The position numbers and the translations under genes were made by a program. From Odiellus spinosus (Eukaryota; Arthropoda; Arachnida; Opiliones; Phalangiidae), in the NCBI GenBank assembly GCA_963920705.1, contig OY987233.1, positions 3,958,001 to 4,022,000 of the forward strand: DNA of 64,000 bases, written 5' to 3'. The stretch's first letter is position 1. Every line of letters begins with the position of its first letter. This document shows, one piece after another, positions 12,774 to 64,000 of this stretch. The notes beneath the pieces were generated by a model. The model did no database searches and was not told the DNA's origin. It was given only the letters and a program-made list of their open reading frames with translations.

Positions 12774-13002
12774 CTACTACTACTACGTAGACGCCGACTC
12801 AATGAATACAATAGCTACACCATCCCACTAAGGAGGAGGGGGCTGTAGCTAAAAAAATCATTCATCTGATCATCATTTCATTATCACTTTATCCTAGAGC
12901 TAGTTTTAAAAGAGTAAAAAAGTAGTAATTTCCGAGTACCAATTAACCCGTTATTGATTAGCGTTCCGGAATAATTTCCCCTCTCTCTTTCTCCTCTCCT
13001 CA

Positions 13003-14320
<1,318 letters not shown>

Positions 14321-16344: not shown

Positions 16345-16471
16345 TAAGTAAATTAAAACCTTTAATAAGTAAATTAGAACCTTTAATAAGTAAATTAGAA
16401 CCTTTAATAAGTAAATTAGAACCTTTAATAAGTAAATTGGAACCTTTAATAAGTAAATTGGAACCTTTAAT
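16345..16471. repeat. 21-bp founder units in front of the 24-bp array
   Basis: About six copies of AACCTTTAATAAGTAAATTAG (21 bp, the last two with TTGG). The 24-bp unit differs by AGTAAATTAG to AGGTTTAAATTA, so this looks like the ancestral edge of the array. Confidence 0.85.
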
Positions 16472-21552: not shown

Positions 21553-22367
21553 TCTGTCGCAAAAAAATCAATTCGCTGTAGGAGATAGATTAGATTTTTT
21601 TTTCTGAAAAATAAATCAATGAAAAATATATTTTGAATCGTTTTTAACATATTTCTGAAAATGCTAATCGGGATTCATTTAATACTCGTAAATTCCGTGA
21701 TAGTCGCGCAAACTTTCCCATATTACCAACAGTGTAGATAATCTTAACAAAGTGTAGAAAAAATAATCGGAGCATCTGGGAATAGGTCTAATCTTGACCA
21801 ACAAAAAAATATATATTATATTAAAAAAAAAGGGTTTTTGGGCTTCGATGGGAAAGAATATATAGGCAAGTTCCTTCATTGAAATGATATTGATGAATAA
21901 GGCTGATCGATGAAGTTTGCAGTTGGTCGAGAAAAACGTCGAAGAGGTGGAGTAACAGACGCTATTCGTCATTCGCGCGCTCGGAAAAAGACCTCTAGAC
22001 CCTCCAGTTTTTCTACACACCCTCCGCACCCACACATACCCTAAGGGCTGAACTTACTCGACCTTAATTGACTACGCGACACGCTTTCCGCCTTCCCTCG
22101 AGTCCCTTTCGTGTCCGGTACCTTAACTTTGCCCACTGCCCATCGGGTTTTTCGGGAATGATGCCAGAAGCAGTCTTAAGCGTGCCATCTTGAAGAACAT
22201 TTTGTTTTTTGACCCGATTTCTTCCAACCCTTTTTTTTTCAACATTTCTGTTCTATTCCAGAAATTGTTCTCGAGTCTCATGGTAATTTTTTCCAATCAA
22301 ATTACCGCTAAAATGTGTTTAATAATTTACATATTTGAAGTGTGTCTGCCACGAATTTTACTTGTCA
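21553..22367. other. Unassigned stretch
   Basis: Contains a 118-codon minus ORF (21679-22035) without a recognisable domain or coding signature. No repeat seen. Confidence 0.45.
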
Positions 22368-22745
22368 TTAAAGGGAGAATGCAACCTAACAACAAGTGTT
22401 TTTATCGATTCCTTATCGTTTAAATAGACCTAATAAACCATTTAAAAAATTTACAAATAAATATTAAACTAGAAATAAATTTAAAACTTACCATCAAAAT
22501 AGGCTTAGCTGGATTCATGGAGATCCTGCATTCCCCAATGTTATTCTTCGCTAGTCCTTATATGTGGAGTTCCGGATATCTCCATGAATCTAGCTAAGCC
22601 TATTTTGATATTTTAATTGCAAGTTTTAAATTAATTTTTAGTTTAATATTTGTTTGTATTTTATTTTTACAGTTGTATTAGGCATATTTAATCGATAGGG
22701 AATCGATAAAAAATCACTTGTTGTTAGGTTGAATTCTCCCTTTAA
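22368..22745. mobile_element. Element A, copy 3 (complete)
   Basis: TTAAAGGGAGAATGCAACCT at left, GGTTGAATTCTCCCTTTAA at right, TTAA borders. Confidence 0.85.
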
Positions 22746-23394
22746 GGAATAACTATTAAAAAGTAGACTAGTAGAGTATATAAAACGTTAAACTTTGACC
22801 TATTTTAGTTAAATTGTTTAATTTTAATCCAAAAACGTCTTTTAATTATAAATTATTGGTAATTTTAACAGAATAAATTACCAATTACGACCTAGCTTTG
22901 CGCGTGCTCCCAGCTCGAAATAGGAATGATTAAAGAATCCTATTTATTCTCCTTAATCCGACCTCTAGAAATCTCCCAAAAATGTTGAACTTTCCTCTCT
23001 CACGCAACTGTTTCCCAAATATTTTTTTTTCCAAGTAGTTTTGGTTTCCTTTGATATTTTTTTGGGGTTTCTTCTTTTAGCTTTCTTTAAGATCTTTACT
23101 AAGAAATGGGTAACGCGTTACAAAGACCCTGCCAAGAAATTTTCCATCAGAAAGAGGTGGAAAAATGGGATGAAATTTTTCTCTTAACAGCTGGGTGTTA
23201 TCGACATGAAACGCCCGCCATAAAGTGTTAAGTAATCTTATAGACTCCTTAGCTCGTGCGCTGGGTATCCACTATATTTCTATGGAATTTCTTAGCCATA
23301 GAACTCGATCATAGAATATATAAATATAAATATTGTCGTATAAGTTTTTGATAGAATTTTTCTGCTATTGGTATTATTATTAATTCGGTTTGCG
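22746..23394. other. Unassigned stretch
   Basis: AT-rich, no gene or repeat seen. Confidence 0.5.
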
Positions 23395-25772: not shown

Positions 25773-26476
25773 AGGCAAAAATTGGTTTTTATAAACTTGT
25801 ACGAAACATTTTCCAATTTTCCTGGTTCACAGGCTGGTTGATTCTTCTAAATTGGTTCATAGCCAAGGCTTAGAGTCGTTTTAAAAAATGCACTGAATAT
25901 AATAATAGCAAGTAATTAACTAAAACTATTTAGTTAATCTTGTTTGTAACACGTTGTTTAAAGGCGAGTCTTTTAGCATTTTAATTTTTCCTATGCCCAA
26001 ATTGAGTCAAGTTAGGTTTCTACTAAAATGTCTTTTACCTTTAAAGCTTAGGGATCTTATAGTGGATATTTGGAAGGAAGGATTTGATACTTGTATTCAA
26101 TCTAGTAATGAATCATTCTCCATTGGATAAGCGGATTTTATACGAGAATTTACGTCCTTTCTTAGCTTGTAAGTTCGAGTATATAGTGTGTAACTATACT
26201 CTCTCCCCTCTATACGATACCAACCCGTTCCGCTGCCACTGTTATCGAACCAGTTTAATTAATTTTCTCCAAGGAGTCGCTTATCAGGAATCGAAGTCGT
26301 TACCGAGAGAAAATAGAAAAAAAGAAAAGGGTAGAGAGGTGAGAGTTTGCAGGATCGACCAAATAAAGAAAGCAAACTTAGTAAAGGGCTTCGATTCTAG
26401 AGAGAAATAGTTGCCAGCTTTGGAGACATTCTATTGTATCTTCGAATCGAAACAAAAAGATTTCGGTAGCCTGTAT
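25773..26476. other. Unassigned stretch
   Basis: Contains a 108-codon plus ORF (26084-26410), starting MILVFNLVMNHSPLDKRILY, with no known domain, no splice context and no repeat origin that I can see. Weak hypothetical at best. Confidence 0.3.
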
Positions 26477-26865
26477 CAAAAGTCTAACACTTTATTCCGT
26501 ATAAGTAAACAACCTCCCGTAGCTTACTATCAGCGAAGGTCCGGTTAATGTACCGGCAGATTCTGATTCGAGACACTCTAGCGGCCGCTGTCGCCATGTA
26601 AATAGTGAACGGAGGAAGCGACACTCTGCGGAGAAATTCCGGAGTTGGGAGGGAAGACAATATAGGCTAGCGAGGCCCGCCTAAATTCCGCCCCTCTCTC
26701 CAGACTCATAATCGAGGAAGAGTCCAATACACTCGAGCCAGACAGGGATGATGACTTTTTTAGCTATTTTTAAGTGATGGGCTTTGACGTAAAACTGGGC
26801 CTTTGCTGATAGTATTAAACTATGGGGCGTTGGTTACTTTTATGGAATTAAGTGATAGACTGTTG
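26477..26865. mobile_element. Foldback element C, copy 4
   Basis: Both TIRs are present (CAAAAGTCTAACACTTTATT; AATTAAGTGATAGACTGTTG) with the CTAGCGGCCGCTGTCG interior. Confidence 0.8.
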
Positions 26866-27519
26866 TTTGTATGTATCGTTACTAGAAGGTTAGAACCCAG
26901 GGCTATTAACAAAGGACATCACCTAAGACGAATAATAAAAACCATAAGCGACCTCTAACGGCTAATAGTGTCTGTTATGAATATATTAAAGGCAGATGAA
27001 CACGTGGTTTTTATTAGTTACTACTTTTGACCGCACGTCGATAAATATTAGTTAAATTCCAGTGCCTCCTTGTGAATTAGTTAATTTACAATGAATCTAA
27101 ACTGCAAATAGAATAATCTTTTGTATAGTTACTTGATAGAGCGAATACAGCCTGCTAAGCTAAATACGTTTATAACTAGATTACTAACAGTTACAACAGT
27201 TTTCTTCCACGTTGTCTCTTATTCCCGAATTGTTTTTGGTTATATGTCTGTATAAGAAGTGACCCAGCGCGGAGTTTCCACTTCAGAGTTTTCGATTTTT
27301 CTCGGTTTTGTTGGCCCCTAGCCACGGTGTTCAACTGATGCGTGGTTGCAAGGTATCTTTTAGTGACTCGTCGTTACGCGTATCTAATCGAGAAACGAGG
27401 TTTTAATTAACTTTCTCCTTAACATGTCATTTTAATCGATATGGACTGTAAACAAACACACCAAAGTTGCAAAATGATATAATTCCAAATATTTTCAGAT
27501 TGAAAATAAGGACAGAGTT
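26866..27519. other. Unassigned stretch
   Basis: No gene or repeat recognised before the 22-bp array. Confidence 0.5.
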
Positions 27520-27524: not shown

Positions 27525-28235
27525 AGTAGTTTGACCATAATTTGACCTTGGTTTGACCATAATTTGACCTTGGTTTGACCATAATTTGACCTTGGTTTGA
27601 CCATAATTTGACCTTGGTTTGACCATAATTTGACCTTGGTTTGACCGTACTTTGACCTTGGTTTGACCGTACTTTGACCTTGGTTTGACCGTACTTTGAC
27701 CTTGGTTTGACCGTACTTTGACCTTGGTTTGACCGTACTTTGACCTTGGTTTGACCGTACTTTGACCTTGGTTTGACCGTACTTTGACCTTGGTTTGACC
27801 GTACTTTGACCTTGGTTTGACCGTACTTTGACCTTGGTTTGACCGTACTTTGACCTTGGTTTGACCGTACTTTGACCTTGGTTTGACCGTACTTTGACCT
27901 TGGTTTGACCGTACTTTGACCTTGGTTTGACCGCAATTTGACCTTGGTTTGACCGCAATTTGACCTTGGTTTGACCGCAATTTGACCTTGGTTTGACCGC
28001 AATTTGACCTTGATTTGATCGTAATTTGACCTTGGTTTGATCGTAATTTGACCTTGGTTTGACCGTAATTTGACCTTGGTTTGACCATAATTTGACCTTG
28101 GTTTGACCATAGTTTGACCTTGGTTTGACCATAATTTGACCATAATTTGACCGTGGTTTGACCATAGTTTGACCACGGGTTTGACCATAGTTTGACCACG
28201 GGTTTTGACCATAGTTTGACCGTAGTTTGACCATA
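27525..28235. repeat. 22-bp minisatellite of paired 11-mers TTTGACCNNNN
   Basis: The unit is TTTGACCTTGG + TTTGACCATAA, with second-half variants CGTACT(T), CGCAA and CGTAA in blocks; about 27 units plus degenerate ones at the right edge (TTTGACCATAG, TTTGACCACGGG). The minus strand reads CCAAGGTCA once per unit, which fits YCAAGGYCR, the binding consensus of FTZ-F1/SF-1 type monomeric nuclear receptors. Three long minus ORFs (about 230-270 codons) are by-products. Confidence 0.95.
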
Positions 28236-36791: not shown

Positions 36792-37462
36792 CAAGGTCTG
36801 TTAATTGTTGATTGAATTTAAAATAACAATTTTAATTGCCTAATTTTAATTTGTATATTAATTCTAAGTGCCAGGCAGTTATTTGAGACGAAAAGCTCTT
36901 AAAAACCTTCCAAATTAAATTTATTACCCAATCGTAAAATTTCTCTTACGAACCTGTAGTGAGTTATTTGATTTATTTTGTTACGTATATATTATTAAGA
37001 AGTGTAGTGCCTATTACTCTTTGAAATGGCTATTCGAGTAGGGCTGTTTTCCCGGAACCAGAGTACCCTAATTTCAATTCTATCGTTACTTTCGAGAAAT
37101 TCCATTTCGCAAAGTGCTTTAGCTCAATCGTTCGCTTCGAATTGAAAGATTTGTATTTACTTTGGAAATAGTTCTCCGGGCCATATCAATGCCTTTTAAA
37201 ATCTTGTCTTGGAAAATAATTTAGAATGTATTCCTTCGCTTTTAATACATAAAAATTGATGTCAAAATTAGACTAAAATCTTCCTTCGGGGGGGGGGGGG
37301 GGGGGAGAAAGGGTAGTTTTTACCTGATTATTATATCTCATTGGACCGATTCTCATTCGACGAATAATCATTTTAGACCGATTGGTTCCATCCTGGTAGA
37401 GGTCGGGGTTTGTACAAGATACTCCACAAATATTTGGTTAATCAGTTAATTATTAATAATAA
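36792..37462. other. Unassigned stretch with G18 run
   Basis: Nothing recognised except an uninterrupted run of 18 G at 37288-37305. Confidence 0.6.
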
Positions 37463-37846
37463 CAAAAGTCCATCACTTTGTTCCGTATAAGTAAACAACG
37501 CCCCGTAGATTAATAGTACCGTCAGCAAAGGTTCGGGTTAATGTACCGGCAGATTCTGATTCGAGACACTCTAGCGGCCACAGTCGCCGTGTAAATAGTG
37601 AACGGAGGAAGCGACACTTTGCGGAGAAATTCAGGAGTTGGGAGGGAAGACAATATAGCCAAGCGCGGTCCGCCTAAATTTCGTCCCTCTCTCCCGACTT
37701 AAAATATCGAGGCAAAAAGTCCAAATTAGACAGGGGTGATGACTTTTTTGGCTATTTTTAAGTGATGACGTAAAACTGAACCTTTGCTGATAGTATTAAG
37801 CTACTGGGCGTTGTTTACTTTTATAGAATAAAGTCATAGACTTTTG
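37463..37846. mobile_element. Foldback element C, copy 7 (complete)
   Basis: Both TIRs are present (CAAAAGTCCATCACTTTGTT; AATAAAGTCATAGACTTTTG). The NotI octamer is mutated here (CTAGCGGCCACAGTCG). Confidence 0.8.
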
Positions 37847-38680
37847 ATAGACCAAATAAAATTAAGTAGAACCGAATATGAAATTTGGTCCTTTTTTGTT
37901 GAATTCACAAGTAATTTTGACAAATGGACCATTTTTGACCAGAGCAAACCCATATTACCTATTTAGAACTCTATGACCCTTTGTAAACTTGCTCAGACTG
38001 ATTTTCGTGCTACTCTTCGATTATAACTTCTAACAAAAAATGTTCATGAACTTCTGATTATGTGTTTCATTATTCGCTGTTTCTCTTAACTGTAGATTGC
38101 TTTCACAACCCAATTTTAATGAAAATGAAACCGTTTTGCCACTCAGTCTTAACCTCAATCCTTAAGGGGTAAAAAAAAAAACAAAAAAAACATCATACCG
38201 TTTCTCATTAAATTATCAGGCAAGACAATAGGGTTTCCAAAGTAAAGTACCAGTTCTAAACTAACGAAGCGTGCTTAAAAACCTAACTGGGATCGAGAAG
38301 CGCTATAGAGTTTAGTACGTGCATGGAAACAATACCAATTTTATCCTTAAACGCATTTCGGAAAATGTAATGACACGGTTTCCAAATGATCATATAGACG
38401 ATGACATTATTATACCTTCTCGTAAGTAGTTGGAAAAGGGTAATGCATCTAGGTTTTGTTTGACCCTTGGTTAATAGGATATACTACAGTCCTTTGGAGT
38501 TTAACACGGAACGCCCGCCCGCCCATACGTTGAAGTTGTCTGTTGTTTGTTTTTCATGGCGAGCTTAAAATTATTATTACAATTAGATTTAGACAAAGCT
38601 AGTTATATGGAAATGTTCAGTTCGCAGTGTAGTAGCCAGGGGCGACATGAAGAGGTGTCGATTTTATAGAAAGATCACTT
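37847..38680. other. Unassigned stretch
   Basis: Nothing recognised before the second 24-bp array. Confidence 0.5.
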
Positions 38681-38689
38681 GAAACGGCC

Positions 38690-39730
38690 CAGTTTTGTGG
38701 ACTTGAAACGGTCCAGTTTCGTCGACTTGAAACGGTCCAGTTTCGTCGACTTGAAACGGTCCAGTTTCGTCGACTTGAAACGGTCCAGTTTCGTCGACTT
38801 GAAACGGTCCAGTTTCGTCGACTTGAAACGGTCCAGTTTCGTCGACTTGAAACGGTCCAGTTTCGTCGACTTGAAACGGTCCAGTTTCGTCGACTTGAAA
38901 CGGTCCAGTTTCGTCGACTTGAAACGGTCCAGTTTCGTCGACTTGAAACGGTCCAGTTTCGTCGACTTGAAACGGTCCAGTTTCGTCGACTTGAAACGGT
39001 CCAGTTTCGTCGACTTGAAACGGTCCAGTTTCGTCGACTTGAAACGGTCCAGTTTCGTCGACTTGAAACGGTCCAGTTTCGTCGACTTGAAACGGTCCAG
39101 TTTCGTCGACTTGAAACGGTCCAGTTTCGTCGACTTGAAACGGTCCAGTTTCGTCGACTTGAAACGGTCCAGTTTCGTCGACTTGAAACGGTCCAGTTTC
39201 GTCGACTTGAAACGGTCCAGTTTCGTCGACTTGAAACGGTCCAGTTTTGTCGACTTGAAACGGTCCAGTTTTGTCGACTTGAAACGGTCCAGTTTTGTCG
39301 ACTTGAAACGGTCCAGTTTTGTCGACTTGAAACGGTCCAGTTTTGTCGACTTGAAACGGTCCAGTTTTGTCGACTTGAAACGGTCCAGTTTTGTCGACTT
39401 GAAACGGTCCAGTTTTGTCGACTTGAAACGGTCCAGTTTTGTCGACTTGAAACGGTCCAGTTTTGTCGACTTGAAACGGTCCAGTTTTGTCGACTTGAAA
39501 CGGTCCAGTTTTGTCGACTTGAAACGGTCCAGTTTTGTCGACTTGAAACGGTCCAGTTTTGTCGACTTGAAACGGTCCAGTTTTGTCGACTCGAAACGGT
39601 CCAGTTTTGTCGACTCGAAACGCTCCAGTTTTGTCGACTCGAAACGCTCCAGTTTTGTCGACTCGAAACGCTCCAGTTTTGTCGACTTGAAACGGTCCAG
39701 TTTTGTCGACTTGAAACGGTACATTTGCCA
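38690..39730. repeat. Second 24-bp minisatellite, ~43 units in two blocks
   Basis: Unit TTGAAACGGTCCAG + TTTCGTCGAC. 22 units read TTTCGTCGAC (38721-39248), then 20 read TTTTGTCGAC (from 39249); five near the right edge have CTCGAAACG and three of these GCTCCAG. Each unit holds GAAAC...GTTTC and the palindrome GTCGAC. Four ORFs of about 350-380 codons on both strands are by-products of a stop-free 24-bp unit. Confidence 0.97.
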
Positions 39731-40910: not shown

Positions 40911-41503
40911 TTTATTGATAAGTATTTGCAATTAAAATAAGTATTTTAATATAGTAATAAAACATTCACAGACGTATGGTTTCGGTAAGACTTGAGGCTT
41001 CGATAATATTACCAGAGCTATTCATTATTAAGCCTCAAACTGGCAACGTTTCTTGTGGGGTATAGATTAGCTCTTACATGGCTTCGGGAATAATAATATT
41101 CCATTATATCAAAACTTTCTTTTATTCGTCCTGTAACCTTTAACCTTTCGTTTTCGCTTTAGTATATGATATATATGCCTTCAACTCATTAAGACGAAAC
41201 GTAATATAATTCGTATTAACGTTATGTTCTTGAGTTGGTCTATTTTCATAATCAAATTGGGCTCCCTATAGGAGGATTGGTCACTTTACCGAAAATCAGA
41301 CTCAATTCTCGTGTTTTTTTAAATAAAAACTCAACCAATGAAATTTAACTTTGTGCATCTAATTTTGCTCGCGTTTATTATAGCGTTCCCCATAGACAGA
41401 CAGACATGTTCGTAGATAATTACATATATAACTAAAAAATTGGGAATGGTTTTCGATAATAATAATGAAAGCTTCACTTAAATTAGTTTATGATCTGTAT
41501 TAG
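40911..41503. other. Unassigned stretch
   Basis: AT-rich; nothing recognised. Confidence 0.5.
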
Positions 41504-41895
41504 CAAAAGTCTATCACTTTATTCCATAAAAGTAAGCAATGCCCTTAGCTTAATACTATCAGGAACGGTCCGGGTAAATGTACCGGCAGATTCTGATTCG
41601 AGACACTCTAACGGCCGCAGTCGCCGTGTAAATAGTCAACGGAGGAAGCGACACTGTGCGGAGAAATTAGGAGTTGGGGGGAAGACAATATAGCCAAGCG
41701 CGGCCCGCCTAAATTCCGTCCCTCTCTCCCGACTCAAAATATCGAGGAAGAGTCCAAATCACTCGAACCAGACAGGGATGATGACCTTTTTGGCTATTTT
41801 CAAGTGATGGGCTATGACGTAAAATTGTACCTTTGATGATAGTATTAAGCTACGGGGCTTTGTTTACTTTTATGGAATTAAGTCATAGACTTTTG
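41504..41895. mobile_element. Foldback element C, copy 8 (complete)
   Basis: Both TIRs are present (CAAAAGTCTATCACTTTATT; AATTAAGTCATAGACTTTTG), with interior CTAACGGCCGCAGTCG. A 67-codon ORF inside is chance. Confidence 0.8.
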
Positions 41896-42320
41896 GTTTT
41901 AGATCAAAAACATCTGAAAAACTTTGATCTACATCACGGTATCATCCTCTATATAAGGAAGGACTCAATATCTTTACACTCTTAATAGCGCCTGTATAGA
42001 AGAGGCGAAATAAAGTGGACTGTCCCCACAATATCGTCATATCGAGAGCGGCGATCTTAACTGCGGACGCGACCGAGAATATAAAGTTAGCTAGCTGAGA
42101 GCATGCTGGCCTTAGCTTTTTATTTTTTTGATATATATATATATATATTGTTTATTATATGGGAGCTATGAGGAGAGCGGGAAACAGAGGAAAGCGAAAA
42201 GGTGACAAGAAAAATAGCAGACCATAACTTGGAGGAAGCAGACTTCTAGCTATTTAAAGGAAAAGCCTCCTCTAAGAAAAATTATTTTAATTAAATTGAG
42301 TGTGAAGAGGATGATGTAGT
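41896..42320. other. Unassigned stretch
   Basis: Includes a short (AT)n run near 42130-42150. Nothing else. Confidence 0.5.
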
Positions 42321-43049
42321 AACTTTTTATCGATTCCTTATCATTTAAATAGACCCAGAAGCCGATGAAACCCTCCTTTGAAGTCTATTACTCCCGGGTC
42401 TTGTCTACCCCTCTCTGTATGGGTTAGTTTCAAAAAGCGCGATTCGTACGCCTCCTAACGGCAGATATTTTCGGAGCGGGAGTTCGTCGAGCGAATATCT
42501 CTAGCAGCCTTGGAGTTCGTCAAAAAAACGTCGTCGTTTGTGGAGAGAGAGAATTTCCAATTTTCCATAGACAGGGGGTATGAAGTAGGACCCCTCCGAT
42601 CTCGTAAAATCGTGAATTTTACCCATACAGAGAGGCGCGCTATATGGAACATTAGAGTAGTAGACTTCATAGGAGGGTTTCATCGGCTTCTGATAGACCT
42701 AATCCATCAGTACAAAGAAATTACAAACAAATATTAAACTAGAAATAAATTTAAAACTTATCATCAAAATAGGCTTAGTTGGATTCATGGAAATCAGCTG
42801 AATTTCTTCCCAGTCAGCGACCAATCGAATGTTATTGGAACGACGGGCCTTTGTTCATTGGTCTATGACCCTTCAACGCGAAGAAATTCAGAATCTCCAT
42901 GTATACAGTTAAGCCTATTTTCCTGGTAATTATTAAATTGATTTATATTTAAATATTTGTTTGTAAATTTATGTACTGGTGGATTAGGCCTATTTAAACG
43001 ATAAGGAATCGATAAAAATCGCTTGTTGTTAAGTTGAATTCCCCCTTAA
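42321..43049. mobile_element. Element A, copy 5, split by element D
   Basis: The left arm CTTTTTATCGATTCCTTATC is interrupted after AATAGACC by a D element (42356-42692). It resumes ATAGACCTAATCCATCAGTA and ends GTTGAATTCCCCCTTAA. The outermost left TIR is missing. Confidence 0.85.
42356..42692. mobile_element. Element D, copy 2 (inverted), nested in element A, 7-bp TSD
   Basis: CAGAAGCCGATGAAACC at left and GGTTTCATCGGCTTCTG at right, flanked by ATAGACC (42349-42355, 42693-42699), which is single in other A elements. Same 337-bp body as copy 1 in the other orientation. ORFs inside are chance. Confidence 0.9.
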
Positions 43050-43099
43050 ATGGAAATTAAAAGCGTATCTATATTTATCCGTCTCTCTGGGTTTTAATT

Positions 43100-50562: not shown

Positions 50563-51355
50563 TTGTGTTGTACACTAAAGCCATGTATAGGTTCAATTTG
50601 ATATAACATTTTGCCTTTTCACGTTACTTGGTCTACAAATACTCTACAACCGTCAAAATTCTGATATGGTTTTAAAAGAAGAACCTTGACCTTGTGTATT
50701 TAATCTCATATCGAGATTAAATGTTTTTCGCATCTAATTTTAATTGGTTTATCAATATGTTATTTGTATAGATATTTTTTTTTAAGATTTTATATTTTTT
50801 AGATTAAATAAATTTATTATTCAGGAAGATTTTGTAGAATCTAGTTCTCAGGATTACCGGTGTTGAAAATTTATTTTGCTAATGTTATCTTGATGTCTGT
50901 GTTTTCTGCCCGCTATTTGGTAGTGGTAAGATTAATATTTTTCATTTTAATTAATTGACTTATTTGGCGTTTATTTGATAATTTGCTTTACTTAAATTGT
51001 TCGTGTAAGGGCTATTTTACATATTACCAAAGATTGCTAATTTCAGTTGTCTTAATTCTGATTTTTTTGTTTTAATACTGAATTATGGACTGGATTATTT
51101 ATCTTGAAATCTATGTGGTTATATCTTATTTATTTTCCTTTTTTTCTCTAGTTAGGTTTGGTTTTAAGTAGAGAATTATTTAGGGTTTTGTTGGTATACT
51201 GAAGAAATGCATATAGGTTCAATGTGATATAATATTTTGCCTATTGGCGTTCCTTGGTCTGCCTTCAAAATTATTATATGGTTTTAAAAGAAGAACCTTG
51301 ACCTTGCTTATTTCACTCGATACGCATTTATATTAAAATTAATTCATTATTCAGC
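50563..51355 (+). repeat. Repeat H, copy 2 (type 1 plus type 2 module)
   Basis: Type 1 module starts ACTAAAGCCATGTATAGGTT, type 2 starts TATACTGAAGAAATGCATAT at ~51197, about 620 bp apart; both carry TTTTGCCT, CGTT(A/C)CTTGGTCT and AAGAAGAACCTTGACCTTG. Between them lie GTGGTAAGATTAAT (donor-like) and TTCCTTTTTTTCTCTAG (acceptor-like). Confidence 0.85.
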
Positions 51356-51365
51356 AAATTTTTTT

Positions 51366-51583
51366 TTGCACTTGACTTTTGGAGCGAATGTATCCGTATA
51401 TCTAACTTAAACTTCTCCATTACCTACTTTGATTTTCATGTACTTGAGTTCCGTGACTGGAATGTGCTTTAAACCCAATCTTTAATAATTCGCCATTGAA
51501 TAACAAACCAACTATTACCACGTAGGATAGGAGACATGATAATTGAGGTCTACATGTTGAATAACCTGCCACAAACTTGTATT
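51366..51583 (+). repeat. Copy of the 215-bp repeat G tail
   Basis: GCACTTGACTTTTGGAGCGA to CCTGCCACAAACTTGTATTT, nearly identical to 50275-50495. Confidence 0.85.
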
Positions 51584-52754: not shown

Positions 52755-53450
52755 TTCGGTGACGTTCGGTTGTATACTGAAGCCATGTATAGGTTCAATT
52801 TGATATAACATTTTGCCTTTTCACGTTACTTGGTCTACAAATACTCTACAACCGTCAAAATTCTGATATGGTTTTAAAAGAAGAACCTTGACCTTGTGTA
52901 TTTAATCTCATATCGAGATTAAATGTTTTTCGCATCTAATTTTAAGTGGTTTATCAATATGTTATTTGTATAGATATTTTTTTTAAGATTTTATATTTTT
53001 TAGATTAAAATAAATTTATTATTCCAGAAGATTTTGTAGAATCTAGTTCTCAGGATTACCGGTGTTGAAAATTTATTTTGCTAATGTTATCTTGATGTCT
53101 GTGTTTTCTGCCCGCTATTTGGTAGTGGTAAGATTAATATTTTTAATTTTAATTAATTGACTTATTTGGCGTTTATTTGATAATTTGCTTTACTTAAATT
53201 GTTCGTGTAAGGGCTATTTTACATATTACCAAAGATTGCTAATTTCAGTTGTCTTAATTCTGATTTTTTTGTTTTAATACTGAATTATGGACTGGATTAT
53301 TTATCTTGAAATCTATGTGGTTATATCTTATTTATTTTCCTTTTTTTCTCTAGTTAGGTTTGGTTTTAAGTAGAGAATTATTTAGGGTTGTGTTGGTATA
53401 CTGAAGAAATGCATATAGGTTCAATGTGATATAATATTTTGCCTATTTCG
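52755..53450 (+). repeat. Repeat H, copy 3
   Basis: Same type 1 module (TACTGAAGCCATGTATAGGT) with the donor-like and acceptor-like sites; the type 2 module is cut off after ATAATATTTTGCCTATTTCG. Confidence 0.85.
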
Positions 53451-54205: not shown

Positions 54206-55080
54206 TATTTTTAGTTTAACCTGATATACGGAAAGCCAATGCGTTAGTTGTTTATTGATAGGTTTATTAGGGTTGTGTTGTATACTGAAGCCATGTATAG
54301 GTTCAATGTGATATAACATTTTGCCTTTTCACGTTACTTGGTCTACAAATACTCTACAACCGTCAAAATTCTGATATGGTTTTAAAAGAAGAACCTTGAC
54401 CTTGTGTATTTAATCTCATATCGAGATTAAATGTTTTTCGCATCTAATTTTAATTGGTTTATCAATATGTTATTTGTATATATATTTTTTTAAGATTTTA
54501 TATTTTTTAGATTAAAATAAATTTATTATTCAGGAAGATTTTGTAGAATCTAGGTCTCAGGATTACCGGTGTTGAAAATTTATTTTGCTAATGTTATCTT
54601 GATGTCTGTGTTTTCTGCCCGCTATTTGGTAGTGGTAAGATTAATATTTTTCATTTTAATTAATTGACTTATTTGTCGTTTATTTGATAATTTGCTTTAC
54701 TTAAATTGTTCGTGTAAGGGTTATTTTACATATTACCAAAGATTGCTAATTTCAGTTGTCTTAATTCTGATTTTTTTGTTTTAATACTGAATTATGGACT
54801 GGATTATTTATCTTGAAATCTATGTGGTTATATCTTATTTATTTTCCTTTTTTTCTCTAGTTAGGTTTGGTTTTAAGTAGAGAATTATTTAGGGTTTTGT
54901 TGGTATACTGAAGAAATGCATATAGGTTCAATGTGATATAATGTTTTGCCTATTGGCGTTACTTGGTCTGCAAATACTCTAGAGCCTTCAAAATTATTAT
55001 ATGGTTTTAAAAGAAGAACCTTGACCTTGCTTATTTTACTCGATACGCATTTATATTAAAATTAATTCATTATTCAGCAA
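54206..55080 (+). repeat. Repeat H, copy 4 (longest)
   Basis: Runs from TAACCTGATATACGGAAAGC through both modules to TTAATTCATTATTCAGCAAA, ~870 bp, with the same splice-like sites as copies 2 and 3. Confidence 0.88.
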
Positions 55081-55284
55081 AAATTTTTCTGACTCTGGTT
55101 CTCAAAATTTTATTTTGAATTAAGTTTGATTCTTTTGCATTCAAATTTATCTTGATAAGAAGTATATTTTTGACCTGAATTATTGGTTTAATATATTTAG
55201 TGTTTAATTGAGATATTATTTTTTTTTTTTTTTTGCTTTCAATCTTCGTCTTCCACAAATGCCATAAATTTTAATATTTTAGGT

Positions 55285-55350
55285 AAGGTTAGGTTAGTTA
55301 ACATCACGTGGTTGTCGGGGAGGTATTATTTTGGTTTCCCAACTTGTGTT
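55285..55350 (+). repeat. TTAGG-like box, second copy
   Basis: GGTAAGGTTAGGTTAG, GTCGGGGAGGTATTATTTTG, GTTTCCCAACTTGTG; pairs with the box at 53505. Confidence 0.7.
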
Positions 55351-56363
55351 AATCTACTCTCATTATAGTTAAATACCTATGTATGACGTTTTGAAAACGG
55401 CAGGAAAACTTCTCTCCCAAAATTTCACAATTACTTACACGAGTTATTGGTTAAAGCACCAAATTGTACGTACCTTGTATTGGTATAGTTTTATAAATAT
55501 ATTTTTAACAACGTATTGATAATACTACTATTATCATAGGTTTAGATGGTAGTGAATGTTTTAAATTTAAAGAGAATCTAAAATTATTTCCACAATGCTA
55601 TTGTTTACGAAAATATTAAGGGATTTCTTAGCGTACTAGAATGTGATGTACTATTAGGAAAGAAATACCCATCATAAAGCTCTCAAAATATTTAGACAAC
55701 TGTATTTAGTAAATATCCTATTACCATCCAAGACAAGAGAAGACCACCGTATTTAGTTGTCCCGAATTACCCGGCAAAAATGACTAATAGGCTTCCAAAT
55801 TTTGTAATTTCTCTCTCATCAATTCTCACAATTGCTTACTTCATAATTTTAACACTTGTTTTTTAGTAAAATAGTATATTGTCATAGAATAAAAATCAAA
55901 TCAGAGGGTGAAATTAGAATATAAGTTTCTAAATAGCATCTATAGCGTGTCTACAGTGCCTGTGCAAATGGATCAAGGCTTTAGATTTAAAAAGAAACCC
56001 GCGCAATAGGTGAAAGCCACAAAAAGCTCCGTCTGTAAAGAAAAATAATAGGTTCGCTAGTTTCAACAATTATTAACGCCAAATATGTAATTCTCAAAGG
56101 CTCGGAATTAATTTGTAAATTATCCGTACATACTTAATTAGATGTGGTTAAAAAATCAGGAATCTGGAGCGAAAATTTAAAACTTTAGACAAGAATTTGT
56201 ATCTCGCCACGACTTTTCCCCCTACATTTTAGAGCATTTATCGCCGTCTTTTGGGATAGTTTTAATTTCCCATTTATTCGCTCAAACCCATGTTAATATA
56301 TTTTTCTTTGCGGGGCTTATAAAGCGCGAGCGCCGCCTATGTGCGTGATCGAGTAGGCTTAAG
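55351..56363. other. Unassigned stretch left of the IR gene
   Basis: AT-rich; no gene or repeat recognised. Confidence 0.5.
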
Positions 56364-56443
56364 CAAGGGTTGCGAGTTAAGTAAATTTATTTGGGTGAAT
56401 TAATAAGGGTTGCGAGTTAAGTAAATTTATTTGGGTGAATTAA
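56364..56443. repeat. 40-bp tandem duplication downstream of the IR gene
   Basis: The stretch AAGGGTTGCGAGTTAAGTAA and its continuation up to GGGTGAATTAAT occurs twice, 40 bp apart. On the minus strand each copy carries one AATAAA (56386-56391 and 56426-56431), so it may supply duplicated polyadenylation signals for the IR gene. Confidence 0.7.
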
Positions 56444-56724
56444 TGTTTTTCAAATTAAGTAAATTTCCGTTTCGAACAGTTTTGGTCGCTATCAAAGGTA
56501 TTTATCATCATTATATAAATGAAATATCTATGGTTTCTCTGGGGTCGCAAGATGTAATATCCGCGTATTGGTCGGATGACGACCTCGGAAATTCAAACAC
56601 AGGGGCTCCATGCTTTTTTGTAGAGGACAACGAAGTGCAGTCTTTAAAAAAAAACTTTTCTATCATATTTAGGAGATGCTTAAAAATAAGAGTTGATATT
56701 TTTCTTAGATTTTCGATAACGTAG
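56443..56724 (+). CDS. Unrecognised 93-codon ORF convergent with the IR gene
   Basis: The frame opens at ATG 56443 (MFFKLSKFPFRTVLVAIKG...) and ends 72 bp before the IR stop. I recognise no domain. The middle part (ISAYWSDDDLGNSNTGAPCF) looks less low-complexity than chance ORFs here, but no splice sites or homologue can be named. It may well be the non-coding 3' flank of the IR gene. Confidence 0.15.
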   Translation: MFFKLSKFPFRTVLVAIKGIYHHYINEISMVSLGSQDVISAYWSDDDLGNSNTGAPCFFVEDNEVQSLKKNFSIIFRRCLKIRVDIFLRFSIT

Positions 56725-56796
56725 ATTCAGAAAATAGTAAAACCAAGAAAGTGATACGTCAGTTTTCATTTATCCTTTAACAAACAAATGATCTCT

Positions 56797-57016
56797 CTAT
56801 TCAACTTTAATCGCGTAAATCATTATTTCCGCCAATAGAACGACTAAATGTAGAGAAAGAGAGATTAACGCCATTGAAAAGTAAATGTATATATCTTTTA
56901 TGGACATTGGGTCGAAGCCCTCCTCGCTATCCGGATACCAAGTGGCTTTATCAATCAAATATTCATTTTTCATTGTGAAACCTTGAAGAACGTTGCCTTC
57001 CACGAAATTTAGCAAT
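56797..57016 (-). CDS. IR last exon f (end of S2, M4, stop)
   Basis: The acceptor CTTTTACAG precedes ATTGCTAAA; it completes a phase 2 Leu codon and runs to TAG at 56797-56799. It encodes WYPDSEEGFDPMSIKDIYI, where the 'l.l..l...f' lead-in precedes M4 (FSMALISLSLHLVVLLAEIM), and a short tail AIKVE. The short cytoplasmic tail is usual for IRs. AATAAA hexamers on this strand lie ~370-410 nt downstream, inside a 40-bp tandem duplication. Confidence 0.85.
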
Positions 57017-58454
57017 CTGTAAAAGTTAAGCGATAATTAATTTATCGTTATTTAGGGAGAATTTCTACCATTCTTATCATATATATTGTCTACGGGTTTA
57101 AAAATCAACCCCCCGTTTATGTCGTCGTGACGCGAATGACGAAGCAAGGGCACAGACGTTTTTGCGGCAGGACGTGGCCACTCCAGTTTTTCGGAGAGAA
57201 AAAATCTATACACGGCTTATAAAGCTATAAAAGGTGACTGTGTCACCATTATCCCATTGATCGGAAGGTATATATTGGCAGCCCAGTTGACGATAGCCGG
57301 CAAAAAAGGCTATAAAGCTAAGAAATAAGACAGCCTCTCAGTTTTCCATCCCTGTTGAAAAGATTGCAATCAAAACCTACACCGCTACGAGCGCTCGCCG
57401 ACGATACGATAGTATAATCTAAAGCCTCGCGCCTTGTACCAGTTGATAAACTGACTTCTCGTTAACTATTACTTTCCGTGTCAAAGCCGGATGAGAGGCT
57501 GGGACGGACGGTGGTTTAGTCTTAGCCGAAATCCTAAAGGGCAACTTCCAGGAACAGGAGAAATGCCTTCTAGGATACGTCTCTTTAATTAGCTTGCAAA
57601 GTTATAGTACCTCTGAGAGTGGCACTTTCTTCAATAAAGATATCCGTTGGCATAATCTCGGTCTTCTCTCAACGATAATATTGGTGGTCTATACAATGTG
57701 GTCAAGATAAGATCAACGCTTAATGTATGGAAACCGCCATACTTTCCAAACTATAAGTGTTGACCTGATCTTGATCATCAGGTATTTATACTTACAAAAT
57801 ATTAATTTTCTCTTGGTGATTTCGGGGGAAACTTCTGTTGAACAATGACGTAAGAATCCCGGAGTTTATCGCAGCGTGACCGTATTGATACGCTGAGTTT
57901 TCAACATGCTGAAAAAAGTCGTAACCCACTATATACAGTAATCGGCTAGCAATCAACGCCTTCTTGCCATCGTTTACATCCTTTAAAAAATCATCGTCTC
58001 GGAGGAGTTCTGCGGGTAGAGCTAGGGAATCCGCGTTTTCTTCCATTTTCGATAATAATTGCTTGAACAACGGATCGGATAAGGCCTGTAACGTAATTTA
58101 AAACTCTTTCCCATCATGGAGAAAGTATAAATGTAGACGCGACAGAATGTGGGGATTCCGAAGCGATGTAAAAATAAGGGGACGGAAATTAAGAGGAATA
58201 TTTGTGGATTCACAAAAACTGTTTCTTATAATGTCGCCAAGTCTAGATCTCCATGTGGCGAACAAATATCAGTTTTCAAAGACTACTTTTTATCCCTCGT
58301 GATGTTTATCAATGTCTAATAAACGATCGATAAGGTTTTATTTTAGATGTCGCTGCGCTTTTAGAGATACGTCCCTTTTGCAATACAAAGCTCCGACTTT
58401 TCTCGACTATAACACCCAATTCAGCTAGGAATTAACTGTTTAAAAGGTTGCGTA

Positions 58455-58496
<42 letters not shown>

Positions 58497-61400
58497 CAAC
58501 CCGTCTGACCTTAATGTAGTCACGTATAATACTGGGGCTCTATCTATTGCAAAATAAACACAGTACTAAGTATTAATGGGGTCCTTTGTCCCAGATCCTA
58601 CCTTGGTCACGGTAAATTTAACCAAACCCAGATTAGCCAGAATATAGTACGTGTTAGATCAATGTGAAAATGTGATAGTTTTTGCAAACTCATTGGTGTA
58701 AAAGTATACTTAAAACCAAGTTAAATCGAATGTGTTCGAACCTTTTTGATCAAAACGGTGTGTGTATTGCCGTTTTTAAACATTACCGGAAGTGGTCGAG
58801 TTTTGGTTTCATCCAAAAGATCCGAGATGGTGTCGATCGTGTCGTATTCGATAACGGATAATTTGGATTGTAAAAATGACGTCAAAAATGTCCTCGCGAT
58901 TAGAAAACATATTAACGAATAAGCCCAGACAATTCTGCCAGGCAAATTCCGCGGGATCCTGGATACACCTATAAAAGCGAATAAAGAATAATGCCAAGTT
59001 TTGAGACCAATTCCCCGATAAAGAAAAAAAAAAAATATTTTCAATTAAAATTAGAAAATTTATGGTAAATTCATTTTTGGTTGTAAGTTTTATTTATAAC
59101 TAACCAAAATCGTTTGGGCAAAGGAGCGGAAAGCTTGAAATTTAGTATATAATTAGTTAGGGGAAAAGTTAACCTATGTACGCTTTTTTGCGAGTGCTGC
59201 TATATAACCCAACTTTTTTTATTTAGAATTATAATACAAATTAAAACGAGCTTAGAACAGCACCAGTCTTTTATTGTGTGCAATAAAAATAGACTATACT
59301 TACACCGACTATAGTTCGACTGAAAACTTTAGTTTCCAGTTGGAAAATGAAGCCCGGGTTTCAAAATTTTCACCTTAAAGGGAGGTTGTAACCTAACAAC
59401 GTGTAATTTTTTTATCGATTCCTTAGGTGGATTACGCGTATTTAAACAATAATAAATAGATAATGGATAAAAAAATCGCTTGTTATTAGGTTTCATTCTT
59501 CCTTTAATGATTTTAGAGGGAAAATCAGTGATCCCGCTTTTCCGCTGGCCCAGCCAATTTGAAATATAATTTTTTTCTTTCTCGTGGTGTTATAAGAGAA
59601 ATAGTTCACAAACCTTGGCTCATAACTGAACAAGTAATGTTCCATAGTTGGTGAAAATATAATTGCCAAAATGACCTCGATTTTTGCGCGACTTCAGTTT
59701 TGGAATTTTTATATACCAACGAAATGAGAGTCAGCAAAAAAGCCACGAAAAATACGGTGCCGAACATTAAGTATTTTACCTGAAATTATAGATTAAAAGT
59801 GATTGGTTCATCTAGCGAGACTGGGAATAATCAGACAACACTGTTACCCATGGACACAAACCGTAAGATTTCTTGTAGACGCTAAATTTGTCCATAGGAT
59901 AACGCTTCTCCGGAATTTAACTAACCGTTGTTTGGCATTGTAAGCTATCGAGGCTAGCTTCGTATTTGTCTGGTACTTTGCTGACGATGATTGTGTAAGT
60001 GTAAGCTAGCCAAGCGCTATTCACGTAGTATTTTAAGTAGCCATATGTTGAGACGTCCGTCCCCACAACAAGTAGATCAACTTCCTACATGATACCCCGA
60101 ATTTAATTACGAACTCCGCATTAAAGGGAGAGTGCAACCTAACAGCAAGTGATTTTTTTTAATCGATTTCTTACGATTTAAACAGGCTTGGTCAGTAAAT
60201 ATATTGCAAACAAATATTAGACTATAAATAAATTAAACTAGAAAACTTACAGGGAAAATAGGCTTAATTGGATTCATGGAGGGCCATCGATCAATGTCAT
60301 TTTGTTAGCTAGGCCTTATATGGGTAGTTCAGGATCTCCATGAATCCAGCTAAGCCTCTTTTGATGGAAAGTTTTAAATTTTTTCTATTGTAATATTTGT
60401 TTGTATTTTTTTTACTGGTGTAATTACTCGTGTAATTAGGCCTATTTAAACGATAAGAAATCGATGAAAAGCCACTTGTTGTTAGGCTGTTTAAGGGATA
60501 CTATTCGAATTAAGCCTTGGAATCGATTTATACCGTTTCAAATCGATTCGCTGGAGTCTGGTGAACAGGAAACCATATTTTCTCGAAATCACTTTACTAA
60601 TTTCCCATGGTAATTAACGTGCTATATTACCAGGGTGATGGTAATTTACGGTTTTGCTCTTGTAAAATTACCAGTTTATAACTTAAATCTTTTTTGATTA
60701 AAAAGGGAACAAAGTATACCGCGTTTGAAATCGTCTACGAGTCTACTCTTCAATAGTTATTTGCGTTTGACGTCCGAGTCTCTATGCCTATCAATGGAAT
60801 ATTGTGAAAATTGTTGCATTTTTCACGAATGTTGGGGCTTGTTTATTCAAGTTTAAAAAATGAAATTTCCCCTTATATAATGACAAATGAAAATCTGATA
60901 ATACAAAATAAAGATTTAAAATCTTTATTTCATTTTGTCATTTTTAAATCGCGTACCGTAATCATTTTCCAAACCATGAAATCGTGATATAATTTGTTAA
61001 AAGTGCAACTTGGAATACGGGGACCTATAAACTTACTGGAATAAAGAGATTTTGATCAATTGTTTCTTTAAATAAGTATTCTTTGATGTCTATCACCTCG
61101 AAACTAAGACAAAAACAAAAAAGATTAAAAGATCCGCAGAACTCGTGTAGAAGTAAATCTTACAAAGTTAACTATTTTATTTTTCCAAGGGTAGTTGACT
61201 CTTACACGGAGAATGCAAACAAACACAAATGATTTTTACCTATTCCTTAACGTTAAAATAGGCCTAATCCATCAGTAAAATTCGATTTAAAACTTACCCG
61301 GAAAATTGGCTTAGCCGGATTCATGGAGATCCTTAATTTTTTCAAATTGATTGGTCAGCGACCAATCATAAAGGCCGCCGTTACAGGCGAGATCTCTATG

Positions 61401-63848
61401 AGACTTCCAATAACATTCGATTGGTCGCTGACCCTTTAATGCGAAGAAATTTAGGATATCTATGAATACGGCTAAGCCTATTTTCCGGGTAAGTTTTAAA
61501 TTTATTTCTAGTTTAATATTTGTTTGTAAAAACAAATTACTGTGGATTAGGAGCATTTTAAATGATAAATAATCGATAAAAAATCTCCATCTGAACATAA
61601 GTGTAATTTATTATATAGTATATTGTTAAACTCCCCTTGTTTCTGTATCCCTGTATCATAAAAACTAGTTTTAGCTCTCAGCAGACTAAAAATGGTGCCG
61701 GATTAGGCGATTTGGCACCCGGGGGCAAAATTTATACGCACCCCTAATTTGAAAATTCAACATTCAACACGCCTTCATTTTATTTAATCGCGCCCCCTAG
61801 GTAGTTCGATTCCCCTTCAATAGATTCGTGCCCAGAAATCATTCCAAATTCAATAACTAACGTCAAGTTTTTCGAAATTTTAGTAAAAATAATCGGTTGG
61901 ATTTGGGTATCAACAGATTTCTTGGGCGCCCCCTTAATCCGGCCCTGGTGCCTTATGTTTTTTAACTTAAATGAACCAGGATATACTTATTTTCAAAATG
62001 TCAACTTTTTCCTTATTTTAGTTAAACCAGGTCATTTGAAACCGATCTCTCAATATTTTATTACTAAATATCAATATTTACTCCTCAAAAAAACTCGCGC
62101 TTAATTAGTCACGAATTAGGCTTAGCCTAAAATCAACCAGAGAAAGCTTTTCCGAGTGTAAATGTTAATTATTTCATCAGTATTAGCTAGAATTATGGAA
62201 CACTGTATATATTAATCTCGGTAATCAATGTTCGCATTTCACTGTAAAAAACGCACGCGCCACTGAGGGACATTTCCGTCAGTGGAGAGTGAAATGAAAT
62301 TGTACGTTGACGTTAAAATAGATAACTATAGTGTATATTTATAGATTCAATATTCTCAGCCGGCTCGGCCACTACGGCATATTACTGAGCGTATTCCTCG
62401 TTTTACAAATACCCGTTACTTTAAAATCTAGTTGAAATAACTCACCAAGTTTTATTAACGAGTTTCGTAGCTCTATCCAGTAAAACTTTAGTCATCGAGT
62501 TCATGGATTCAAGCATAAAACTTTCCTTAAATTCAGAAACCGAAAAGAAAAATCAGGTGTCTTTCAATAGAAGCTTTACGTTACCTACCCTTAACTAATA
62601 ATCCGACAGAGGAGCGAGAGCTAAGCCACTCCCACTCCTAAGTCAGCCACCCATACATGGTCGATAAAATTTGATCAAAAATAATTATCATAATAAAAGT
62701 GAGGCTGTCAAGTAATTTGCATGTACTCCAAATGGAAATTGAGTAGCATTTTCGGAAAGATCGTTAAAAAACGATTCGAAATATACACACGTGTCATAGT
62801 AAAAATTACTACAAAAATAATGATGGCCATTTTCGAAATTTTCAAATTAAAAATTCATCCCAATATTACTTCATCACTAGAACTCATTGGGTGTGAAAAG
62901 TCTTTGTGTCAGCGTGTATTTTACCTTATATACTAAATATTGGATGTTGTTAATTTTCCGAAAAAGTAAAACGCGGAAAATTTCCTGGAAATTTTTCCGC
63001 AAATCGGAAAATAAAAAACCGTTAAATCCTTAATTTTTTTTAATTGATAAAAAATTAAATTGTTAACCATTGAACAAAAGAAATCAGTTTCAGCCTTTAA
63101 ACTTTAGAATTTAATTGAATCTAATTCGCTATCGATTAAATTTCAACGTCTGTTATAGACCGTTGGTTAGATAGATTTCACGGAACTTCGTGCTAAAAGA
63201 GGCACACGCGAAGCGCTGAATCACCCGAATAACGTAGTTTCCTTTCCATTATCTAGTTACTGTAAAACTATATACGTTCACACTAGGTACTTTGAAACTG
63301 TTTCTTAAATCGTTCTAATATTAAAATTTTCAAAGATAATAACCCTATTACTTGACCAAATATCTCTCGAATTTAACGCAAACATTTTCAGTTTTACCAT
63401 TCCAAATCATTTCCAAACGAAGTCTCTAGTGTGAACGGGTCTTTTCTGTAGCCGAAAGCAAATCTAAAAACTGTTTCTAAGGCCCTTCAAATGAGAAGAG
63501 TGAACCAAGCGAACGTCGTTCTTCGGAATTCACTAGGGCTACGACCCCCCTCGCTTTTACTGTGATTTTACATGGGACTGACCCTAAAAGAAATACACTA
63601 CCGTATTCGAGTCCCCAAAATATTAGAAATTAATTTGGGAAAAACAGGACTAAACTGAAAATTAGGTAGCGGAAAAAAGTTTCCGGAAAAATATGCATCG
63701 GAAAATATTCCGGCTTACAACCCTTTGAATAATTTGCAAAAACTCGCTTAAAGTTTTTAATCGTTACCTCGATGGCTCCTACGACCAACTGGTGTCCTTC
63801 GTAATTTCCTTCTACATTGTCGCAACAAGTTTCCAATGTCCAAACCAT
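56797..63848 (-). CDS. Ionotropic receptor (iGluR superfamily), C-terminal part, six exons
   Basis: Ligand-gated cation channel subunit of the plasma membrane; the divergent insect/arthropod IR class is usually chemosensory. I joined six exons by GT-AG sites with matching phases: 63848-63768, 60084-59926, 59779-59614, 58968-58742, 58085-57796, 57016-56797 (1143 nt with stop, 380 aa from the first Met). Order of parts: end of lobe S1 (EVDLLVVGTDVSTYGY, then IIVSKVP), M1 (LMFGTVFFVAFLLTLISL), pore region ending SQG, M3 (RIVWAYSLICFLIARTFL and following TSFLQSKL), S2 (TISDLLDE ... PLFKQLLSKM ... DVNDGKKALI), and M4 (IYFSMALISLSLHLVVLLAE). The Arg that binds glutamate in S1 of true iGluRs is absent and the SYTANLAAFLT motif of M3 is strongly altered, so this is a divergent IR and not a canonical glutamate receptor. 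The start is unsure: ATG at 63848 lies after an in-frame stop near 63898, and the N-terminal domain and start of S1 are missing, so real upstream exons may lie beyond 64000. It could be a truncated copy, but no exon has a stop or frameshift. Confidence 0.8.
57017..57795 (-). other. IR intron e/f
   Basis: 779 bp with GTAAGT and CAG ends. It holds a GC-richer stretch (57100-57500) with TATAAA-like strings but no ORF or repeat family I can name. Confidence 0.6.
57796..58085 (-). CDS. IR exon e (S2 lobe)
   Basis: The acceptor CGTTACAG precedes GCCTTATCC and the donor is a consensus GTAAGT; phase 0 in, phase 2 out (290 nt). It encodes ALSDPLFKQLLSKMEENADS, then DVNDGKKALIASRLLYIVGY and the rest of S2. 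The '..dv..Gk.Al(i)' pattern is typical of IR and iGluR S2 lobes. Confidence 0.82.
58457..58496. repeat. Poly-T tract, 40 nt, in IR intron d/e
   Basis: An uninterrupted run of T in the 656-bp intron 58086-58741. On the minus (gene) strand it is poly-A, so it is not the polypyrimidine tract of the acceptor. Confidence 0.95.
58742..58968 (-). CDS. IR exon d (M3 and start of S2)
   Basis: The acceptor CTTTTATAG precedes GTGTATCC; entry phase completes Gly of the pore turn. It encodes IPRNLPGRIVWAYSLICFLI and ARTFLTSFLQSKLSVIEYD (M3), then TIDTISDLLDETKTRPLP, the linker into S2. The chosen donor is AAAAAG before GTTCGA, which is weak; a better-looking donor (CCG before GTAATG) lies 45 nt upstream in the same phase. 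I prefer the longer form because PVMFKNGNTHTVLIKK fills the S2 strand expected before PLFKQLLSKM. Confidence 0.8.
59375..59507. mobile_element. Element A, short copy in IR intron c/d
   Basis: TTAAAGGGAGGTTGTAACCT at left, GGTTTCATTCTTCCTTTAA at right; the interior is deleted to ~90 bp. Confidence 0.8.
59614..59779 (-). CDS. IR exon c (M1 and pore loop)
   Basis: The acceptor TTTCAG precedes GTAAAATAC, and the donor CAAG precedes GTTTGT. It enters at phase 0 and leaves at phase 1 (166 nt). It encodes a hydrophobic helix LMFGTVFFVAFLLTLISL, a basic cytoplasmic stretch, and FWQLYFHQLWNITCSVMSQ, whose ending SQ-G matches the pore selectivity turn (Q-G) in iGluRs. Intron b/c is only 146 bp. Confidence 0.82.
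59926..60084 (-). CDS. IR exon b (S1 lobe)
   Basis: The acceptor is ...CATGTAG before GAAGTTGAT, and the donor is ACAACG before GTTAGT; phase 0 at both ends, 53 codons. It encodes EVDLLVVGTDVSTYGYLKYY and NSAWLAYTYTIIVSKVP. This is the family pattern (acidic residue, hydrophobic strand, 't.eR' turn, 'vdfs.p' region, then 'i.v.kp'), but the conserved Arg after the turn is replaced, which suggests a ligand other than glutamate. Confidence 0.82.
60121..60498. mobile_element. Element A, copy in IR intron a/b
   Basis: TTAAAGGGAGAGTGCAACCT at left, AAATAGGCTTAATTGGATTC and its inverse inside; the right end fades at CTTGTTGTTAGGCTGTTTAA. Confidence 0.8.
60505..60597 (+). mobile_element. Element E, fragment in IR intron a/b
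   Basis: GCCTTGGAATCGATTTATAC followed by GAAACCATATTTTCTCGAAA; the rest is lost. Confidence 0.65.
61204..61590. mobile_element. Element A, second copy in IR intron a/b
   Basis: CGGAGAATGCAAACAAACAC at left, GGCTTAGCCGGATTCATGGA and its inverse inside, AATCGATAAAAAATCTCCAT at right. A 95-codon ORF across it is chance. Confidence 0.75.
61591..61972. other. Unassigned part of IR intron a/b
   Basis: No exon-like frame or repeat seen. Confidence 0.4.
61973..62156. repeat. Repeat L, copy 2, without the tandem units
   Basis: TATTTTCAAAATGTCAACTT, CATTTGAAACCGATCTCT, TTAGTCACGAATTAGGCTTA, AAAATCAACCAGAGAAAGCT: collinear with the flanks of copy 1 but lacking the GAGTGTAACCATGG units. In IR intron a/b. 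Confidence 0.75.
62157..63271. other. Unassigned part of IR intron a/b
   Basis: Short inverted words (GTCAGTGG / CCACTGAG near 62260-62285) and chance ORFs only. A missed IR exon of phase 0 could be hidden here. Confidence 0.4.
63272..63438. mobile_element. Element E'-like copy in IR intron a/b
   Basis: TACGTTCACACTAGGTACTT at left and AAGTCTCTAGTGTGAACG at right, 167 bp, like the E' at 29948. Confidence 0.7.
63768..63848 (-). CDS. IR exon a (part of lobe S1)
   Basis: Begins at ATG (MVWTLETCCDNVEGNYEGHQ...) or, if internal, at an AG just upstream (AAATTAAG before the ATG; the frame is open back to a TAA near 63898). It ends GCC ATC GAG followed by donor GTAACG, phase 0. The end (GHQLVVGAIE) runs directly into exon b (EVDLLVVG), which reproduces the loop and strand before the D of the iGluR S1 lobe. 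The 5' boundary is the least certain part of the gene. Confidence 0.55.
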
Positions 63849-64000
63849 CTTAATTTCGCGGTCAATATTGAAGCGCCCTCTTTTAAGTTTAAAATATTAC
63901 GCTGTAAATGAGTTCAAAATGGGTTCGAGAGAGATTTAAACAATTGACCTAAGTACTTTTATTCGTAAACTCCTTTAGCGTATAGAGTCATAATGCGTAT

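Follow-up and report, generated by a model that had tools for sequence, protein, structure and literature searches.

A 64,000-base stretch of the Odiellus spinosus genome (GCA_963920705.1, contig OY987233.1, positions 3,958,001 to 4,022,000 of the forward strand), hereafter the window, was analysed. Its G+C content was 35%, and it contained no N. On the minus strand at 56797-63848, a gene model was studied as a candidate for an ionotropic receptor (IR), i.e., a divergent relative of the ionotropic glutamate receptors (iGluRs). The model came from a first-pass annotation made from the letters alone. Its coordinates, its six exons and the intron phases 0, 0, 1, 0 and 2 were all present in the sequence, and the six blocks joined into 380 residues followed by TAG, without an internal stop. 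The five introns (3683, 146, 645, 656 and 779 bases for introns 1 to 5) were all of the GT...AG type, with the donors GTAACG, GTTAGT, GTTTGT, GTTCGA and GTAAGT in order. The G+C content was 0.355-0.457 in exons and 0.307-0.416 in introns. In the self-comparison of the window, no exon overlapped a repeat, whereas the introns did. Hydropathy peaks for M1, M3 and M4 appeared in iGluR order, and a fourth, weaker peak was found at residues 21-39 in the S1 part.

The joined product matched the Pfam model Lig_chan with an E value of 5.9e-6 (26.6 bits), and exons 3-6 alone gave 27.2 bits. A separate iGluR profile, built from four vertebrate iGluR sequences, scored the joined product at 17.7 bits, and the top of 2000 shuffles reached 7.9 (1398 reported). 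Because the exons had been picked by eye in the first-pass annotation, a blind-join control independent of that choice was made on both strands, with six tandem-array regions left out. Pairs of stretches open for 45 codons or more, on the same strand and at most 1 kb apart, were joined at all phase-consistent GT/AG sites, provided that 30 or more codons remained on both sides and that the intron was no shorter than 50 bases. This gave 9453 joins from 1428 pairs, and 5730 joins were reported by hmmsearch with the iGluR profile. The exact splice between exons 3 and 4 (59614/58968) ranked first of all 9453 (16.4 bits, E 0.0021). Second came a shifted splice between these stretches (10.4), and the top join elsewhere scored 9.6.

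Exons 3 and 4 joined were also scored against their own shuffles, giving z 5.9 in local alignment (reached by 0 of 300 shuffles) and z 7.1 in free-ended alignment (0 of 400). The score of exon 4 alone was reached by 3 of 300. When open stretches were paired without splicing (2571 pairs, 1676 reported), the top score was 5.1, and the exon 3/4 pair was not within the best 12 of the 1676 reported pairs; the lowest of these 12 scored 2.3. The match therefore depends on the splice. On the basis of the Lig_chan match, the rank among the blind joins and the shuffle z scores, the pore core encoded by exons 3 and 4 is judged to be real, and these sequence comparisons support its membership in the iGluR/IR superfamily. 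The first-pass annotation had read the end of S1, M1, an SQG pore turn, M3, S2 and M4 from the product. The pore core of this series stood beyond chance, and exons 1, 2, 5 and 6 gave no significant match. These four putative exons were placed by their order, splice borders and open frame, and by a suitably located hydrophobic M4. The features are listed in the table.

Table. Features of the candidate receptor gene (positions in the window)
Feature	Position	Strand	Description
Exon 1	63768-63848	-	27 codons, phase 0 at the 3' end, open frame, GT donor; 5' border provisional
Exon 2	59926-60084	-	Putative last portion of S1, containing TDVSTYGY and lacking Arg; AG/GT borders, stops in the other two frames only
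Exon 3	59614-59779	-	M1 and pore loop to SQ(G)
M1	59714-59770	-	Residues 84-102, hydropathy peak 2.55
Exon 4	58742-58968	-	End of pore loop, IPRNLPGRIV, M3, start of S2; within the Lig_chan match of the joined product
M3	58859-58933	-	Residues 148-172, ends FLTSFLQSKL; peak hydropathy of 1.64 over 148-166; aligns with the region of SYTANLAAF
Exon 5	57796-58085	-	Putative second part of S2; 96-codon open frame, gtaagt donor
Exon 6	56797-57016	-	End of S2, M4, stop codon
M4	56818-56874	-	Residues 356-374, hydropathy peak 2.31; assigned by hydropathy and position only
Two AATAAA hexamers	56386-56391, 56426-56431 (TTTATT on +)	-	Located 366 and 406 bases beyond the stop codon; candidate poly(A) signals

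All three strings, SQG, TDVSTYGY and FLTSFLQSKL, could be read in the product. The pore turn reads SQG, compared with QQG in GluA2, placing Ser at the Q/R position. After the turn, IPRNLPGRIV aligned with SPRSLSGRIV of GluA2. The canonical gate SYTANLAAF was not found at the end of M3. In its place stood FLTSFLQSK by the profile alignment, or IARTFLTSF by another alignment, with about 2 of 9 residues identical in both. The gate string is correct, and the alignment register of the gate and of the ligand-turn motif is uncertain. Exons 1 and 2 contained no Arg in 80 residues, so that the S1 Arg which binds the α-carboxylate of glutamate would be absent whatever the register, provided that these two exons are right. 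In S2, the Thr of NGNT aligned with DGAT of the profile consensus, and this Thr may be kept.

Several results weigh against the assignment of the whole product as a receptor of this superfamily. A profile search, suggested in the first-pass annotation as a check, succeeded in part: Lig_chan was matched, though its 26.6 bits fell under the curated cut-off of 30.8, and Lig_chan-Glu_bd was matched neither by the joined product nor by its pieces, the start of S1 lying outside the model. No iGluR match in Pfam was obtained for exons 1-2 joined, for exons 3, 4, 5 and 6 singly, or for exons 5-6 joined. Exon 3 alone was not significant with the iGluR profile (178 of 300 shuffles reached its score), and in local alignment 29, 95, 252 and 104 of 300 shuffles scored as high as exons 1, 2, 5 and 6, respectively. 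In free-ended alignment, exons 1-2 fell below the shuffle mean against S1 (z -1.3, reached by 369 of 400), and exons 5-6 stood 1.4 SD above their shuffle mean (37 of 400). When the hydrophobic segment of exon 6 was left unshuffled, this exon gave z 0.4 (119 of 400). When the whole profile was aligned blindly with splicing over 55001-64000, the gene was not recovered: the scores were 18.3 bits on the minus strand and 17.7 on the plus strand, compared with 16.6-27.9 bits in 30 shuffles of the minus strand that approximately preserved its dinucleotides. The four-sequence vertebrate profile is probably too distant for such a blind whole-gene search. With hhalign, the single sequence against the iGluR alignment gave a probability of 18.6% (E 0.0013). 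The donors GTTTGT and GTTCGA of introns 3 and 4 are weak-looking splice sites. No second IR copy was found in the window, the other tblastn matches having E values of only 3.2 to 8.4. Apart from these points, exon 6 showed a weak collinear second stretch to the M4 region of GluA2 (-0.4 bits). Two unrelated Pfam matches of exon 3, both under the cut-off (E 0.031 and 0.15), were set aside.

The product was compared with known receptors, and published statements here and below are given from parts of the cited papers. Divergent or tuning IRs of protostomes resemble it in the order M1-pore-M3-S2-M4, in changed ligand residues and in strong divergence (PMC2924276, PMC7882480). The identity of divergent IRs with other IRs goes down to 8.5% (PMC2924276). 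A Drosophila-focused review describes the IR binding domains as highly divergent, with the Arg kept in only 19 IRs, the Thr in 9 and the acidic residue in 10 (PMC7882480). The first-pass annotation had presented the ligand turn TDVSTYGY and the M3 gate FLTSFLQSKL as unusual changes. Both strings exist and the lack of Arg holds for exons 1-2, but their register is unsettled and such traits fit the published descriptions of IRs, so they are unsurprising for the family. It is highly doubtful that an M3 gate rebuilt to hold Gln and Lys at positions that are small or hydrophobic in the bundle crossing of iGluRs, together with a replaced S1 ligand turn, would give gating and recognition unlike those of iGluRs.

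The AMPA, kainate, NMDA and delta iGluRs share with the product the PR-L-GRIV pattern after the QG turn and hydrophobic M1 and M3. They differ from it in the residue at the Q/R position, in the gate and in the Arg missing from exons 1-2, and outside the pore the similarity was at noise level. The co-receptors IR25a and IR8a would belong to the same superfamily. IR25a is described as highly conserved (PMC2924276), in contrast to the protein here, a contrast drawn by description only. In gene structure, the divergent IRs of Drosophila melanogaster are mostly single-exon, unlike this multi-exon gene, and the antennal IRs and iGluRs of that species have 4-15 introns (PMC2924276). Multi-exon tuning IRs, comparable to this gene, are known in a crustacean, i.e., the mantis shrimp Oratosquilla, with 2-27 introns (PMC11939437). 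For the dipluran Campodea, 2431 IRs were reported. Most of them lack introns, and 901 of the 2424 that make up the expanded set are pseudogenes (PMC6938034).

It is reasonable to consider the locus as the 3' part of a divergent IR gene with several exons, covering the protein from the last portion of S1 through M4. The receptor is probably of the tuning type, and we give this reading a probability of about 0.75. A receptor of this type would lack a typical amino-terminal domain ahead of S1, and the 5' part concerned is probably located beyond the window. The first-pass annotation had called the gene a chemosensory-type IR of the iGluR superfamily. Its superfamily assignment stood for the pore core, by the Lig_chan match and the blind joins. 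Judging from the divergence and from the missing Arg in exons 1-2, the gene most likely encodes a chemosensory IR and not a synaptic iGluR. In such a receptor, S1 and S2 would fold as a clamshell and bind some small ligand that is not glutamate. When it closes, the clamshell would pull the M3 bundle and open a cation pore formed by M1, the re-entrant loop with SQG, and M3. The protein would be one subunit of a tetramer that includes a co-receptor, for example IR25a or IR8a, and would work in sensory neurons. The similarity found concerns the pore core of this scheme, and its binding lobes, M4, partner, ligand and tissue are postulated. The gene is probably a new but ordinary, fast-evolving member of the IR family, which is already known as very large.

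The 5' end bears on a different reading, i.e., a 5'-truncated or otherwise dead IR copy, in which the 3' exons survive but the front part is gone or no longer in frame, so that no receptor is made. The ATG at 63848 does not appear to be a credible start of a complete receptor because the front half of S1 is missing. The proposed start of exon 1 is preceded by an AG (attaag) without a pyrimidine tract. Judged by eye, the best acceptor upstream is ttacag, which would start the exon at 63901. It leads to a frame different from that of exon 1, and the frame of exon 1 itself hits a stop just behind this acceptor. Either the acceptor of exon 1 is weak, or exon 1 is wrong, or the copy is damaged there. 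The missing start and this out-of-frame acceptor agree with a dead copy, as do the pseudogene-rich state that IR families can reach, with Campodea as the example (PMC6938034), and the 42% of the window that repeats within itself, tandem arrays included. However, 380 codons free of stops and frameshifts, with five GT-AG introns, speak for an intact gene, and the absent 5' exons may simply lie past 64000, where the remaining 5' part of the gene is probably found. A dead copy is considered rather unlikely.

The significant similarity is confined to the pore region, which is common to IRs and iGluRs, and it would also suit a divergent superfamily member other than an IR, synaptic or of another kind and not chemosensory. 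Among sequences of solved structures, the matches to GluA were weak (best E 0.22), and all 35 sequences with E values of 10 or less were AMPA-type glutamate receptor subunits. This low similarity to all solved iGluRs disagrees with a non-IR identity, as does the absence of Arg from exons 1-2, whereas iGluRs keep this residue (PMC7882480). The gate identity of about 2 of 9 disagrees as well, since the motif is well conserved in most iGluRs, although less so in one subfamily and in some members of a class (PMC6307864). Such a receptor is very unlikely here. A chance assembly of unrelated open stretches would agree with the blind whole-profile alignment falling within the shuffle range and with five of the six exons lacking a significant match singly. 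It is already disfavoured for exons 3-4 by the Pfam E value and by the first rank of their exact splice among the joins, and hardly any weight is left to it.

For the divergent IR gene preferred here, the relevance lies mainly in annotation. A published survey removed sequences with fewer than four SYTANLAAF residues (PMC6307864). The product is under the Pfam cut-off and would fail this filter of at least four residues, so receptor counts that use such filters can miss similar genes. If the gene is intact, a divergent IR with at least five introns would also add one case to the record of how IR genes gained or kept introns.

Past the stop codon, the AATAAA hexamers are weak as poly(A) signals because AATAAA is no more frequent in the window than expected (187 occurrences, compared with 217 expected). 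An exact 40-base tandem duplication lies at 56365-56444, about 350-430 bases past the stop, with one AATAAA per copy. Within intron 4, a run of 40 T on the plus strand (A on the gene strand) at 58457-58496 is possibly the tail of an inserted retroposon. Intron 1 holds repeat stretches at 60119-60489 and 61202-61587, in which as many as 10 and 12 self-matches overlap, respectively. The former belongs to a dispersed family of about 350-370 bases, also found at 9194-9558, 22356-22749 and 42693-43062, and 61202-61587 matches one of its members. Several copies of this family, 60119-60489 included, match each other in both orientations, like MITE-like inverted-repeat elements.

Outside the gene, no tRNA or Rfam matches were found in the window. 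The ten longest open stretches (of 122 listed, tandem arrays left out) gave nothing at E 0.1 in Pfam beyond two matches under the cut-off (E 0.018 and 0.031). A search of viral and prokaryote collections with exon 4 gave no relatives, in line with an animal origin of the gene. Copies of a second dispersed family, each about 400 bases long and 81-90% identical to one another, lie at 2945-3356, 10128-10493, 26474-26871, 37440-37848 and 41481-41902. Three direct copies of about 680-820 bases with 96-99% identity (50563-51368, 52769-53447 and 54273-55091) are possibly recent duplicates or parts of mobile elements. The largest array, at 16349-21552, repeats a 24-base unit about 218 times over 5.2 kb with 99% match and carries long open stretches on both strands. 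Further arrays with 95-99% match lie at 12981-14325 (8-base unit, 168 copies), 38677-39720 (24-base unit, 43 copies) and 27529-28233 (22-base unit, 32 copies). A degenerate, short GTTAG/TTAGG-like array at 1539-1599 (75% match) is reminiscent of the arthropod telomere unit.

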